A stretch of 36,111 nucleotides of DNA, taken from positions 1-36,111 of IMG/VR virus record IMGVR_UViG_3300018053_000003. One strand, given 5' to 3'. The notes beneath the pieces were generated by a model. The model made no database searches, had not been told where the DNA came from, and saw only the letters and a program-made list of their open reading frames with translations. The stretch is from a virus. Positions within the stretch are counted from its first letter, which is position 1, and each line of letters starts with the position of its first letter. Below are positions 10,648 to 35,903 of this stretch, in pieces. The translations under genes and the position numbers were made by a program.

Positions 10648-11022
10648 ATGGCAGCGTGGCCCTCTACTCTTCCGTCTCCGCTAATGGATTCCTATTCAAT
10701 TGAACCGGAAGACCCATTGGTGCGTACGGATTTCGAATCTGGCCCTGCTAGGGTTCGGCGCAGATATACAGCAGCACCAAGTCTCATAAGAGGAAAGATA
10801 CGTTTGACAAAAACACAATTCGGAATATTCGAAAAATTTCATAAGAACGATCTCAAGGATGGGGCAGAGTCGATTACTAGCATGCCTATGCTTAACGGGG
10901 TTGGCATAAGTCTAGTCACAGCGCGCTGTGTCGGAATGTGGTCCGCGAGTGTAGTTCCTCAGAGCAATGTATGGGATGTTGTGATTGCGCTTGAGGTTGC
11001 TTCGAGGCCGTTACCTGCTTAA
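10648..11022 (+). CDS. Minor tail protein (lambda gpM position)
   Basis: The 124-residue product starts right after the tape measure stop and ends in an overlap with the next ATG. The opening WPSTLPSPLMDSYSIEP and the later LVRTDFESGPARVRRRYT are typical of short phage tail proteins found directly after the tape measure in phages with DUF1833 and NlpC/P60 neighbours. It probably joins the distal tail tube to the tip. No catalytic residues are expected. Confidence 0.7.
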   Translation: MAAWPSTLPSPLMDSYSIEPEDPLVRTDFESGPARVRRRYTAAPSLIRGKIRLTKTQFGIFEKFHKNDLKDGAESITSMPMLNGVGISLVTARCVGMWSASVVPQSNVWDVVIALEVASRPLPA

Positions 11023-11546
11023 TGCCGAATACAACTTTAACCCAGGCCATCAAAGAGGCCTATGCAGCGGCCCCTACCGACACAGTTATTCTACATACTT
11101 TAGAACTTCGGCATGTAGCACTTACCGTGCCGATTCGTGTAGTTCTAGATAATCAAGACTGGGTGTTGACGCTTGAGGCTGGTGCACCAGTAAATCCTGG
11201 ACAGGCAGTGACATTTATCAAATTCCGCTTTGATTTTAGAATTCCTGACATCACAGATGGATCATCTCCAGAGATGGAGGTCAGTATGGATAACGTTGAC
11301 CGTTCAATAGTAGATGGACTAGAAGCAGCAAATGCTAGTCCATCTAAACTGGAACTGACGTACCGTCAATACACGAACTTGATTACGAGTGCTCCGCAGA
11401 ATAACCCGCCATTACATCTGATTGTAAATCACTGCGAGGTTAACTTGTTCAGGGCAACGCTTAGGGCAGGGTTCGGGGACACGGTTAATAAATCATTCCC
11501 TGGAGAAACTTACGATGTTGGGAGATTTCCTGGGTTGGTAGTTTAA
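11022..11546 (+). CDS. Minor tail protein, DUF1833 family (lambda gpL position)
   Basis: A 174-residue protein with the DUF1833 plan: an N-terminal helix with AYAAAPTDTVILHTLELRH, a central strand run with TFIKFRFDFRIPDI, then PEMEVSMDNVDRSIVDGLE, and a final G-x-FPGL. It lies between the gpM-like and NlpC/P60 proteins as in other phages with this tail tip set. It is expected to contribute to the tail tip complex. Its start overlaps the previous stop. Confidence 0.8.
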   Translation: MPNTTLTQAIKEAYAAAPTDTVILHTLELRHVALTVPIRVVLDNQDWVLTLEAGAPVNPGQAVTFIKFRFDFRIPDITDGSSPEMEVSMDNVDRSIVDGLEAANASPSKLELTYRQYTNLITSAPQNNPPLHLIVNHCEVNLFRATLRAGFGDTVNKSFPGETYDVGRFPGLVV

Positions 11547-11599
11547 ATATGATTACTTGCTATTGTTTGCTTCCAAAGTAGCCAGCGTTGCCAGAAGCA

Positions 11600-11880
11600 T
11601 GTTGTATGCGGTTGGGGTAGGCTGTCATTCGGCGGGGTCACCTAGCCATCGCCCCTGTGCACCCATGACTTTGGTTGGAACCATTTAGTGCACGACCCCA
11701 CGAATTATGCCTACCCCAAACTGCCGCTCCCGCCTGCCCATTAATTACCCGGCGATTTGCGGTCGACTCCGGGCTCACCTACGTCGCGTCGTTGCTTTCC
11801 TGGCGTCCGCGGTAGGGCTACCGTTCTTGGACTTCGACCAGCCAAGACTCTGGTGGGGCTCTACAGCACGTAGATTAACA
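11600..11880 (+). ncRNA. Candidate structured RNA between tail genes
   Basis: The 335-base gap after the DUF1833 gene has no credible gene but strong nested pairing. The outer helix joins 11608-11622 to 11709-11724 (15 pairs with one bulge). Inside it GGGGTC (11634-11639) pairs with GACCCC (11694-11699) and GTGCAC (11657-11662) with GTGCAC (11688-11693), around a short TGGT/ACCA hairpin. A second domain is bounded by CTACGT (11779-11784) and ACGTAG (11868-11873) and contains CGGTA/TACCG (11810-11823). The last arm lies 8 bases before the NlpC/P60 ATG, where a ribosome binding site would be. No group I intron core was recognised and both flanking genes look intact. Confidence 0.55.
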
Positions 11881-11881
11881 T

Positions 11882-12286
11882 ATGCACTGGGCAGTTGACT
11901 ATATCGGGCGTGAATGGGTAAGCGGCGCTCAAGGCCCTGACACATTCGATTGCTGGGGATTCTTGCGCTATGTCCAGAGAGAAAGGTTTGGGATAAATAT
12001 TCCGGTGGTGGATTTAGATGATGTTGACCCGAGAATTGCGCTAAGAGCATTCAATGGAAACCGCCAGTGGTTACGAGTTTCTTCCCCGCAAGAAGGTGAT
12101 TGCGTGCGCCTTTCGTATTCTACTGATCCTCATGTCGGTGTCTGGATTGATGCCGACGGTGGCGGGCTGTTACATTGCGTGGAACATACAGGTGTGATTT
12201 TTAACAACCTAAGTGCGTTGCGCCTAAACGGTTGGAAGCGTATTAAATACTATCGCTACTCTCGTGACATGAAATATACAAGATGA
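11882..12286 (+). CDS. NlpC/P60 family tail tip peptidase (lambda gpK-like)
   Basis: The 134-residue protein opens with HWAVDYIGREWVSG and has the catalytic cysteine in FDCWGF (about residue 24). The candidate catalytic histidine is in PHVGVW (about residue 80), with further polar residues at HCVEH. This is the NlpC/P60 cysteine peptidase plan used by tail tip proteins to cut peptidoglycan crosslinks during DNA entry. The N-terminal domain of lambda gpK is missing, as in many phages of this type. The usual ribosome binding site is poor and overlaps the predicted RNA stem, suggesting controlled translation. Confidence 0.85.
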   Translation: MHWAVDYIGREWVSGAQGPDTFDCWGFLRYVQRERFGINIPVVDLDDVDPRIALRAFNGNRQWLRVSSPQEGDCVRLSYSTDPHVGVWIDADGGGLLHCVEHTGVIFNNLSALRLNGWKRIKYYRYSRDMKYTR

Positions 12287-13494
12287 GTAACTTTGGCGTA
12301 GTTGCCACCATGGCAGAGCTTAGAGCTTTTTGCATTTCTGCTACAGATACAATTCTGTATATGATGGGTTTTAGAGCAGATAATGATGGCGGCCAAGGAC
12401 TGTTTTTCTGGGACTCTTCATCTTCTGATGAAGATAACTCTGGAACAGTAATAATGTCTACAGGATATGCTGGATGTGGGCGCTGGAAACGCTTATACAA
12501 TGGCTCCACGGTCTACCCTGAATGGTTCGGCGCCATTGGTGATGGCGTCACAGATGATCAGGAGGCTATAACAAACTGCATCAAAGCTGATTCCAACATT
12601 GTTCTAAGGCCTGTTACCTACAACTTGAATTCCATCTCTGGACCTAATGAAGCATTGACCATACCGAACAGAAGAACCATATGGGCCTACGGCACTAAAT
12701 TTAAGATGGGGGCGTCTTTAGACACAGATAAGATCTGCTTACTTATCTCTGATAAAACATGGTTGGCTGGAGTAAGTGATGTCAGCATATTCGGGCTGAA
12801 TATTGACGGGAATAGAACAAACAGGAAAGGTGGCACCAGCTCCGGGCACGGTATCTTTATTTCCTGTTGCGACAACATAAGACTGACTGACGTAACATCA
12901 GCAAATAACCCATGTGATGGAATAGAAGTAACTGGAGATACGACTTATGCCGGTGATTTGTCAAACAACGTGAGATTGCAAAATTGCCTGGTTCATAACA
13001 ACTTTAGAAACGGGCTGAGCGTAACAGGGACCAGGGGATTCAGATGCTATGGTATGGTGGCTACTGGCACGAACGGTGCATCTCCGCAGGCTGGAATCGA
13101 TGTGGAGCCTAATGGGCCTAGCAGCCCAAACGTAGACTTTCGGTTCTACGGAACTCGCTGCGCAGCAAACGCCGGAGACGGATTCTTGGTAGCCAATAGT
13201 GAGTCTCTAAGCACTGGGATAATCGATGGTCTCACATCAACTGGGAACGGCCTTTACGGATTTGAGAGTACGGCAAAACCTAATGACGTAATTTTGAAAG
13301 GTTCATTTGGCGGATCTAATAAGTCTGGAGATTTTGCTCCAGGTTCAGTCGACATACTTTCTTTGCGAACAAGCACGTCCTCAGTAGACATCCGTGGCGA
13401 GGCTTTTAATCTCCTCAGGGAAGACCAAGAATTTAGGGATCTTATAACTGAGGTGGTGCTGAATACACTCGCAACCTACAGGAGGGCGAGTTGA
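12283..13494 (+). CDS. Tailspike, pectate-lyase-like beta-helix
   Basis: The start overlaps the NlpC/P60 stop (ATGA). The 403-residue product has an N-terminal domain with ATMAELRAF and GRWKRL, then the pectate lyase superfamily opening WFGAIGDGVTDDQEAI at about residue 83, followed by rungs of a right-handed beta-helix with repeated G-x-x-I/V and N-rich turns. Such spikes bind and often cleave capsule or lipopolysaccharide. The C-terminal 30 residues form a helix that may aid trimerisation or attachment. It occupies the place between gpK and gpJ where lambda has gpI. Confidence 0.8.
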   Translation: MSNFGVVATMAELRAFCISATDTILYMMGFRADNDGGQGLFFWDSSSSDEDNSGTVIMSTGYAGCGRWKRLYNGSTVYPEWFGAIGDGVTDDQEAITNCIKADSNIVLRPVTYNLNSISGPNEALTIPNRRTIWAYGTKFKMGASLDTDKICLLISDKTWLAGVSDVSIFGLNIDGNRTNRKGGTSSGHGIFISCCDNIRLTDVTSANNPCDGIEVTGDTTYAGDLSNNVRLQNCLVHNNFRNGLSVTGTRGFRCYGMVATGTNGASPQAGIDVEPNGPSSPNVDFRFYGTRCAANAGDGFLVANSESLSTGIIDGLTSTGNGLYGFESTAKPNDVILKGSFGGSNKSGDFAPGSVDILSLRTSTSSVDIRGEAFNLLREDQEFRDLITEVVLNTLATYRRAS

Positions 13495-18398: not shown

Positions 18399-18890
18399 TC
18401 AGATTCTTTTCCTTAGCACGCCTACCAGCGTGAGCAATCCAATACCCATTAGCAATAGCGTAGCAGGCTCAGGAACCGATGCTACCGGTATTTGATACGG
18501 AGATATCTCTGCTCCAGTAAACTTGAACAGCGGCTCTGGAAATGGGAACGCTGAGCCAATAGATGATGTGAACCATCCTGGACCAACCCTCTTTACATCA
18601 CCCTCAAAGCCTAGAAGATCTCCGATTAGCGCAGTCATAAAAGATTCTCCAGTGCCATTTTCTTCTAAGAAGAGATGATGCAGGCGAAAATCTGGAGTTG
18701 GGCCTAGTACGTATTGGAATTCCCCTAAGCTCGTGATGCTGAAAGCCTGGTTGGCCGGAATGTCCATCACGTCTGATGTGAATGTTATATTGTCAATCGT
18801 GAAATGCGGCTGAGCAATAATGATGTTGGCCGCAACTGGCGTGGACAGAATAAAAGCTAGGGCGGCTGTTGATAGCCTCGGCATTTTCAT
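18399..18890 (-). CDS. PEP-CTERM sorting domain protein
   Basis: The 163-residue product has an N-terminal signal peptide (MKMPRLSTAALAFILSTPVAA) and a complete C-terminal PEP-CTERM signal: VPEPATLLL, a hydrophobic helix, then RKRI. In Gram-negative bacteria this signal is read by exosortase (EpsH/XrtA family) and is linked to exopolysaccharide production. The middle region is beta-rich and unidentified. A ribosome site (AAGGAA) lies just before ATG. The gene lies between the tail operon and the attP candidate, a usual place for lysogenic conversion cargo. The host exosortase would be needed for processing. Confidence 0.8.
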   Translation of the reverse strand: MKMPRLSTAALAFILSTPVAANIIIAQPHFTIDNITFTSDVMDIPANQAFSITSLGEFQYVLGPTPDFRLHHLFLEENGTGESFMTALIGDLLGFEGDVKRVGPGWFTSSIGSAFPFPEPLFKFTGAEISPYQIPVASVPEPATLLLMGIGLLTLVGVLRKRI

Positions 18891-28517: not shown

Positions 28518-28601
28518 AGCGGGATAGCTAAAAGGTGGAGCGACGAGGGAATGCTTACGACATCTCCGAAAGATAGCCGGGTTCGAGTCCCGGCCCCGCT
28601 G
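28518..28601 (+). tRNA. Degenerate type II tRNA-like element
   Basis: Acceptor AGCGGGA (28518-28524) pairs with CCCCGCT (28594-28600) with one mismatch, followed by G73-like G. The D arm resembles TAGCT-GG-AGC, the T arm is perfect (CCGGG TTCGAGT CCCGG) and a long variable arm forms ATCT/AGAT. The anticodon arm does not pair in any register; TGCT is present where Ser-GCT would be read. It could be a decayed tRNA-Ser or a tRNA mimic. Confidence 0.45.
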
Positions 28602-29460: not shown

Positions 29461-29526
29461 ATGCTGACCAATTTCCCCCCTAGCCACGATGGTGACTGCC
29501 AAATGGCAGGGGTAAAAAGGCAGTGA
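29461..29526 (+). CDS. Possible 21-aa leader ORF of the methyltransferase
   Basis: ATG 29461 to TGA 29524-29526, which overlaps the methyltransferase ATG (TGATG). Product MLTNFPPSHDGDCQMAGVKR plus one residue. It may couple translation; coding nature is uncertain. Confidence 0.25.
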   Translation: MLTNFPPSHDGDCQMAGVKRQ

Positions 29527-30857
29527 TGCATATCGGCGAATGCCGTGATGTCATGCGCGAGTTGATCGCACAGGGGGTCAAGGTGCAGTGCGTTGTAACT
29601 AGCCCCCCGTATTGGGGCTTGCGCGATTACGGGACAGCGACTTGGGAAGGCGGCGACGCCGAGTGCGATCACGTGAAGGCAGGCAAGGTCAGCTCAGCGT
29701 CCACGCTGCGTAACGATGGGCGCGAGCACACCGGACCATACGAGGGTGAAAAAGCAACGTACACGCCGTTTCCCTATCGCGACATCTGCGGCAAATGCGG
29801 TGCCCGCCGCGTGGACAAGCAGCTCGGGCTTGAACCTCGGCACGATTGCGGAGCTTGGACCCAAGCAGAAGTGGTGTCCGAGAGCGCGGTCGAAGAAGAA
29901 ATTGACGCTTCGGTCTATGACGAGGAGACGGGGGACTGGCTCCGCTACGAAAAACGCCGGAGACAACGGCGCATCCGCACGCAGCGCATTAAGCAGTTGT
30001 GCGGCGAGTGCTATGTGTGCGACATGGTCGAGGTGTTCCGGCTGGTGTGCAAGCTGCTCGATGACTCGGGCACACTCTGGCTAAATCTCGGCGACTCTTA
30101 CATCAACGGCGGCAAGGGTGTCTACCAGTCAAGCCGAGCGACCGCCAAAGACTCGAAGCAGCGCTCGAATCTCGCGAACGACTTCATCGGGGCGCCCAAC
30201 CGGCGGCCACAGCCGGGCTTAAAAAACAAGGATCTGTGCATGATGCCGGCGCGCGTCGCGCTTGCGTTGCAAGCAGATGGATGGTATCTGCGCCAAGACA
30301 TCATCTGGCACAAGCCAAATACGATGCCAGAGAGTGTGACCGACCGCTGCACCAAGGCGCACGAGTACCTGTTCCTGTTGACGAAGAGCGAGCGCTACTA
30401 CTTCGACGCCGAGGCGATCAAGGAACCCTCGTCCTATACTACGTACGCTCGGCTTCCTGGCAACAAGACTCACAAAGGGCTGACCGCCTACGAGCAAGGG
30501 CATATCGAGCATCGCACAAAGGCCGGACTGGTGAACTATGCCGAGCGCATGCGCGCATCCTGGAAAACGCCTGACGGCTCGGTGATTCCGGTGTGGTGCA
30601 ACAAGCGCTCTGTCTGGACCATCTCCAGCGAGAGATTTTCTGGAGCCCACTTCGCTACATTTCCTAAGAAGCTGGTCGAGCCCTGCATTCTCGCCGGGTC
30701 CAGGCCTGGCGATATCGTTTTCGACCCATTCATCGGCTCCGGCACCGTCGGCCAAGTCGCCGAGAATCTCGGTCGCCAATGGATCGGCATCGACTTAAAT
30801 CCAGAGTACGCCAAGCTAGCTAGGGTAAGGACTGCACAGATGGTTATGGCGCTGTGA
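29526..30857 (+). CDS. DNA methyltransferase (N4/N6 type, beta-class order)
   Basis: The 443-residue enzyme starts at ATG 29526. Motif IV TSPPYWGLRDYG lies at residues 25-36, and motif I FDPFIGSGTVGQVA near residue 399, so the catalytic motif precedes the AdoMet motif (beta-class order). A cysteine-rich part (CGKCGARR ... HDC ... CGECYVC, residues 91-170) interrupts the usual LGLEP-to-MVEVFR junction with a highly charged insert. SPPY is used by N4-cytosine and some N6-adenine enzymes. No restriction partner is near, so it probably protects phage DNA. GC content is clearly higher than neighbouring genes, indicating recent acquisition. Confidence 0.85.
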   Translation: MHIGECRDVMRELIAQGVKVQCVVTSPPYWGLRDYGTATWEGGDAECDHVKAGKVSSASTLRNDGREHTGPYEGEKATYTPFPYRDICGKCGARRVDKQLGLEPRHDCGAWTQAEVVSESAVEEEIDASVYDEETGDWLRYEKRRRQRRIRTQRIKQLCGECYVCDMVEVFRLVCKLLDDSGTLWLNLGDSYINGGKGVYQSSRATAKDSKQRSNLANDFIGAPNRRPQPGLKNKDLCMMPARVALALQADGWYLRQDIIWHKPNTMPESVTDRCTKAHEYLFLLTKSERYYFDAEAIKEPSSYTTYARLPGNKTHKGLTAYEQGHIEHRTKAGLVNYAERMRASWKTPDGSVIPVWCNKRSVWTISSERFSGAHFATFPKKLVEPCILAGSRPGDIVFDPFIGSGTVGQVAENLGRQWIGIDLNPEYAKLARVRTAQMVMAL

Positions 30858-35124: not shown

Positions 35125-35903
35125 CTAGTGATGCGGTTAATGCTTTAACTTGGGCTGCCGAGGTTTTTTATCGGCGACTCATGAGTGTTGTTGATGATTA
35201 TGGCCGATATGACGGAAGGGTCCAGGTGTTGAGGGCTGCGCTATATCCCCTCGCCATTGGTCGGGTGTCTGAGCCGGACTTAGCAAAGTGGATTCTGGAG
35301 ACAGATGAAGCGGGGCTAGTAAGGAGGTACATCGTCGATGGTAAGCCATACCTGGAGGTTCCTAAATTCGGTGTTAAGGTGCGGGCAAAAGTAAGTAAAT
35401 GGCCGGACCCGCCGCCAAATGTTGGCAGATGTCAGCAGATGTTAGCAGATGCCCCCGTATTCGTATTCGAAGACGTAGTCGTATTCGAAGACGTAGTCGA
35501 TCTATCTCCTAACGGAGATTTGTCGGGCAAAACGCCCGACGCTGCCCATCTCGGGGAGCAAAAACCTGTGGATAAACTGCCTGATAAAGTCCATAGAAAC
35601 GCGGCTTACAAGCCTTATGTTGTTGATGCTAAAAGCGTTTTGGATTACCTGAATAAAGCTACTGGAAGCAACTTTCAGTTGCGAAACAGAAGCGGGGAAC
35701 TGACTGCTAGCGCCGTCAAAGTAATCAACAGGCTACAGGCCGGTTACACGGCCATAGAACTTAGGGAAGTTGTATTCTCCAAGGCTGAGCAATGGGGAGA
35801 TGATGACAAGATGCGAGAATTTCTAAGGCCTGAAACTTTGTTTTCAAAGGAGAACTTTGAGCAATACCTTGGCGCGATCCAGAGGCCTTTGAATCCAAAT
35901 TAA
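35091..35903 (+). CDS. Phage replication protein with conserved phage C-terminal (Phg_2220_C-like) domain
   Basis: ATG 35091 is chosen over an in-frame TTG upstream. Residues 1-105 (IRAAILTSDAVNALTWAAEVFYRRL, then a winged-helix-like region) form the DNA-binding part shared with initiators like lambda O and DnaD-type proteins. A linker at residues 110-180 is encoded by repetitive DNA. Residues 182-265 contain VLDYLNKATGSNF and AVKVINRLQAGYTA, typical of the conserved phage C-terminal domain. It probably recognises the phage origin and loads the host helicase. Of genes with a recognisable role it is the last in the window. Confidence 0.78.
   Translation: MPDRIIRAAILTSDAVNALTWAAEVFYRRLMSVVDDYGRYDGRVQVLRAALYPLAIGRVSEPDLAKWILETDEAGLVRRYIVDGKPYLEVPKFGVKVRAKVSKWPDPPPNVGRCQQMLADAPVFVFEDVVVFEDVVDLSPNGDLSGKTPDAAHLGEQKPVDKLPDKVHRNAAYKPYVVDAKSVLDYLNKATGSNFQLRNRSGELTASAVKVINRLQAGYTAIELREVVFSKAEQWGDDDKMREFLRPETLFSKENFEQYLGAIQRPLNPN
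35419..35540. other. Candidate replication origin inside the replication gene
   Basis: Three 10-bp near-identical units (ATGTTGGCAG, ATGTCAGCAG, ATGTTAGCAG; 35419-35448), two exact 18-bp units (35463-35480 and 35481-35498), and two hairpins (ATCTCC/GGAGAT at 35504-35519; GTCGGGC/GCCCGAC at 35522-35540) lie in the linker of the replication protein. In lambda the origin with its iterons lies in gene O in the same way. Confidence 0.5.

Follow-up and report, generated by a model that had tools for sequence, protein, structure and literature searches.

Elements of the ERIC/IRU type are intergenic imperfect palindromes. Phage morons are, by definition, additions that bring a gene (PMC4378225). The window analysed here, that is the whole stretch of 36,111 bases of an IMG/VR virus record, contains a gene-free insert of 335 nt (11547-11881) that fills the gap from the stop of a DUF1833 gene (11546) to the ATG of an NlpC/P60 gene (11882), just as a preliminary description of this DNA had stated. 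The upstream neighbour on the plus strand (11022-11546) is a DUF1833 tail gene of phrog_396, minor tail protein (Pfam PF08875, 4.6e-31; PHROG, 3.9e-33), and the downstream neighbour on the same strand (11882-12286) encodes an NlpC/P60 tail peptidase (PF00877, 2.4e-9) that has no Shine-Dalgarno sequence and is uncoupled from DUF1833. On the 3' side of NlpC/P60 follow the gene of a beta-helix protein and then a J-like tail tip gene. Since no gene separates NlpC from the J-like gene in the relatives that were inspected, the beta-helix gene (12283-13494) seems to be another lineage-specific insertion next door.

The two genes are usually adjacent, as the preliminary description had also claimed. 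In a survey of 214 IMG/VR loci that carry both, 151 of them distinct, the gap is 45 nt or less in 145 of the 151 distinct loci, and mostly the genes overlap or touch each other; in three isolates, BcepGomr and two Achromobacter phages, they overlap by 4 nt. The insert thus interrupts a pair that is normally contiguous, as is characteristic of morons. One relative has a gap of 69 nt, and gaps above 100 nt are found in five distinct junction sequences that represent four independent events, with 260, 324, 733, and 809 nt. None of these four other long inserts is similar to the one in the window, and in all four groups the most gene-like reading frames run antisense to the tail operon. The cargo at L225 (3044-3776) comprises an antisense ParE-like toxin (Pfam PF15781, 1.3e-22) and an adjacent HTH protein, the 809-nt cargo of the L157 group (L157:1875-2683; also L160 and L161) has an antisense ORF of 219 aa that belongs to no known family, L179 has an antisense ORF of about 72 aa, and the AT-richer 324-nt cargo at L136 (3044-3367) has an antisense ORF of about 90 aa with NPYG repeats and a signal-peptide-like start. 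Four independent groups with antisense ORFs at this place indicate that the DUF1833-NlpC junction is a recurrent moron site, and as a few relatives have gained extra genes there, the insert in the window is probably also a cargo or the remnant of one, and not a known control RNA. Antisense cargo, in one case a toxin-antitoxin-like pair, has thus landed repeatedly between these tightly coupled tail-tip genes.

The explanation that fits best, with a probability of about 0.5, is that the insert is foreign DNA, a gene-free or decayed moron-type cargo at this recurrent site for accessory genes. Its GC content is 0.555 as compared to 0.486 in the genome, and the part from 11608 to 11881 reaches 0.59, a value that only 2.2% of the windows of this genome attain, so that this part has the deviant base composition of a moron. 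Another GC-rich, compositionally deviant island lies at 29461-30550 and contains a DNA methyltransferase-like gene. What is missing is the defining content of a moron. The small ORFs of the insert match no family, none of the six frames has a coding signal when judged by the phage's own codon use, the codon scores being lower than those of all phage genes tested, and simple consensus scans, for promoters restricted to sigma-70-type sites, detected neither promoter-like nor terminator-like sites in it. The latter agrees with the earlier view that the structure is not a simple terminator. There is also no tRNA in the 335 bases; elsewhere, in a gene-poor stretch (28518-28601), the window has a tRNA-like sequence, with AGCGGG/CCCGCT as its acceptor and GCCGGGTTCGAGTCCCGGC as a perfect T arm, that is called by neither ARAGORN nor Rfam. 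As the definition of a moron requires a gene (PMC4378225), the insert is termed moron-like cargo here and is not filed as a moron. Further points against the cargo interpretation are that no search found a source or homologue of the insert, and that its GC content, taken over the full length, is not exceptional for this genome, 4.7% of the windows being equally high.

The L157 group shows how such a cargo may arrive, as the tail of DUF1833, with a stop, is present there a second time before NlpC. The two copies align over 30 columns (0 of 1000 shuffles as good), the second copy of the last codons is mostly synonymously diverged, and the cargo is absent from relatives whose DUF1833 is 91-98% identical, so cargo may come with a spare copy of the tail of the upstream gene. 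In the window there is a shorter and weaker version of such a scar. The left copy, GTAGTTTAA-ATATG (11538-11551), covers the last DUF1833 codons, the stop, and the junction, and it aligns to a right copy, GTAGATTAACATATG (11870-11884), that ends in the start codon of NlpC (p ~0.013 relative to shuffles). The repeat is imperfect, has 15 columns, keeps the same register around stop and start codons, and places ATATG at both ends of the insert; judged from its sequence, it is possibly a recombination scar or a target duplication. In L136, 10 nt of the gene tail are repeated exactly (TTAATTTCCC, p 0.004), and L179 and L225 have no such repeat. With two loci lacking the repeat, and with the short length and the p value of the one in the window, the latter is suggestive only. 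If the insert is moron-like cargo, a recombination event at the DUF1833 end would have brought it in and left the short repeat of gene tail, stop, and start codon; the hairpin described below would have arrived with this cargo, which may by now be gene-free or decayed. The chief effect on the phage would be the broken stop-start coupling of DUF1833 and NlpC, with a probably lowered translation of NlpC. The present NlpC start has an anti-Shine-Dalgarno energy of +0.3 kcal/mol, one of the weakest values among the scanned starts, whereas the original-looking start context that follows the DUF1833 stop, at ATG 11549, has -5.7 kcal/mol, and this difference suggests that NlpC is now uncoupled and translated more weakly.

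The most conspicuous feature of the insert is an imperfect palindrome of 120 nt (11608-11727) that can form a long hairpin with 41 pairs as plus-strand RNA and 43 pairs as minus-strand RNA. Its outer helix indeed has the 15 pairs of the preliminary description, the 3' end of which has to be shifted from 11724 to 11727: 11608-11612 pairs with 11723-11727 and 11613-11622 with 11709-11718, with a 4-nt bulge between them. The nested inner helices that had been noticed are there as well, at 11627-11631/11701-11705, 11634-11639/11694-11699, and 11657-11662/11688-11693. The stretch 11603-11728 folds better than 200 of 200 dinucleotide shuffles on both strands (z -3.74 on plus, -4.87 on minus; -4.06 with DNA folding parameters), and no other of the 658 windows of 126 nt scanned on both strands of this genome reaches so low a folding energy, a first rank that is somewhat favoured by the deliberate positioning of the hairpin window. 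In that genome-wide scan, the z values of which are rougher (25 shuffles per window), three other windows are more extreme than the minus strand of the hairpin and eight are more extreme than its plus strand. As several of them lie inside genes, strong folding by itself does not prove an RNA. Strong folding is also seen at short tandem repeats within an ORF at 35425-35499. The whole 336-nt region is only slightly better than shuffles (z -1.74, 6 of 100 equally good), and its folding signal comes entirely from 11608-11727, so that the claim of pairing far above chance and the comparison with shuffled controls hold for the hairpin (0 of 200) and fail for the supposed second domain treated below (108 of 200 as good).

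A hairpin of this kind might be an independent structured noncoding RNA that constitutes the cargo and is most likely encoded on the minus strand like the other cargo genes at this junction, which are antisense. In agreement with this, the structure that surpasses all shuffles has its lower energy on the minus strand (-60.2 versus -55.3 kcal/mol), where five of its pairs are G-U, as compared to two on the plus strand. On the other hand, a DNA palindrome alone also gives a strong hairpin, no promoter-like or terminator-like site accompanies it, there is no homologue besides an identical copy, and the insert matches nothing in Rfam, neither at the gathering threshold nor at E up to 5; this was the covariance-model search that the preliminary description had proposed, and no family came out of it. 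An independent RNA is therefore possible but unlikely, and the more specific idea of a moron with a new structured ncRNA family as cargo, transcribed antisense to the tail operon, is rather unlikely.

A mobile palindrome of the MITE or ERIC kind, taken over from intergenic DNA of the host and possibly with ATATG as a 5-nt target duplication, would account for the 120-nt imperfect palindrome, the step in GC content, and the ATATG on both sides. The ends of the insert have no terminal inverted repeats, though, and no second copy exists in the phage, in 768 proteobacterial genomes searched by blastn (399 of Burkholderiales and 369 of the wider class), or in the genome pattern scan. The matches in these genomes were 20-47 nt long, and the ones that were inspected are apparently due to chance or to coding sequence; a search centred on methane- or ammonia-oxidiser-like genomes covered only eight genomes. 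Searches of phages and plasmids with blastn gave no match, tblastn with the frames of the insert gave nothing meaningful, a degenerate-pattern scan with one frame found no match in 84,980 genomes, and a one-sequence covariance model found none in 274 genomes. Scans of viral contigs with degenerate patterns of two reading frames returned only one contig, IMGVR_UViG_3300018078_000134, which has the only other copy of the insert. Aligned with the window over 4,058 bases, this contig shows eight differences, which all fall within its first 36 bases, so that the two copies of the insert are identical and provide no variation for an analysis of covariation; this second sequence supports a real population rather than a one-off assembly error. 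The element is thus present in a single copy in the phage and in no copy in the genomes searched, among which the host is not included, whereas a repeat element should occur in several. A PEP-CTERM-like sorting signal (VPEPATLLLMGIGLLTLVGVLRKR) at the end of a protein encoded on the minus strand at 18399-18890, unusual in a phage, may hint towards the host.

A pattern of the hairpin arms, searched in viral and genome contigs, found only unrelated hairpins that share just the arms. Several of the loci in Marinobacter (L018, L024, L027, L028, L044, L046) and Saccharospirillum (L043) have hairpin repeats that look intergenic, are about 110 nt long, and have the arms TGGGGTAGGC.../...GCCTACCCCA, in L043 with a second such hairpin at 566-684, and in Pauljensenia hongkongensis (L019, L020, L026, L030), ATTGGGGTAGGCAA and its complement are clustered with many repeats in short stretches. 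The intergenic hairpins with the same arm word in Marinobacter and Saccharospirillum could speak for a mobile palindrome, but what they share is only the arms, i.e. the chosen search pattern, and the weak covariance-model matches at these loci largely reflect the pattern by which they were fetched. An attC-like reading was dropped, as by eye the hairpin arms have no GTTRRRY/RYYYAAC core. Taken together, a mobile palindrome is unlikely, though hardly less probable than an independent RNA.

It had further been proposed that a second structured domain, with a closing arm (11868-11873) at the ribosome site, controls the translation of NlpC, i.e. that the insert is a cis-acting leader RNA. Its position directly 5' of NlpC, the coupling of which it abolishes, would suit such a function, and CTACGT (11779-11784) is in fact complementary to ACGTAG (11868-11873) before the NlpC start. 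Despite these complementary arms, the region 11729-11878 is no more strongly folded than shuffled sequence (z 0.10 on plus with 108 of 200 as good, 0.90 on minus), and with the +0.3 kcal/mol mentioned above, there is no Shine-Dalgarno sequence that the arm could hide. Neither the domain nor the proposed control is supported by this, the relatives manage without any leader, and a function of the insert as cis-regulator of NlpC is unlikely, leaving a leader RNA with a low probability. Least probable is a self-splicing or otherwise excised element. If the DNA between the two ATATG copies were removed precisely, the normal stop-start junction TTTAAATATGCAC and the better Shine-Dalgarno sequence of ATG 11549 (-5.7 kcal/mol) would be regained, but neither a group I nor a group II intron was matched by cmscan (E up to 5), contrary to the suggested intron-like remnant, and no endonuclease or maturase gene lies within or beside the insert.

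In comparison with the known systems, group I and II introns and the phage RNAs of Rfam are like the moron-like cargo in that they are structured and leave the flanking genes intact, whereas none of the covariance models matches the insert at a level that would be of use. With ERIC/IRU-type elements it shares the intergenic site and the imperfect palindrome, which is some 120 nt long, but the palindrome is not repeated in the searched genomes and has no sequence match, and the insert includes about 200 nt of non-palindromic flank. From phage morons (PMC4378225) it differs in having no recognisable gene, promoter, or terminator; like them, it is extra DNA of deviant base composition between two genes that related phages have side by side, and genuine genes sit at the same junction in other phages. 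One phage thus carries a gene-free, hairpin-bearing insert at this tail-tip site, and should the hairpin turn out to be expressed as RNA, this would be a moron with RNA as its only cargo.
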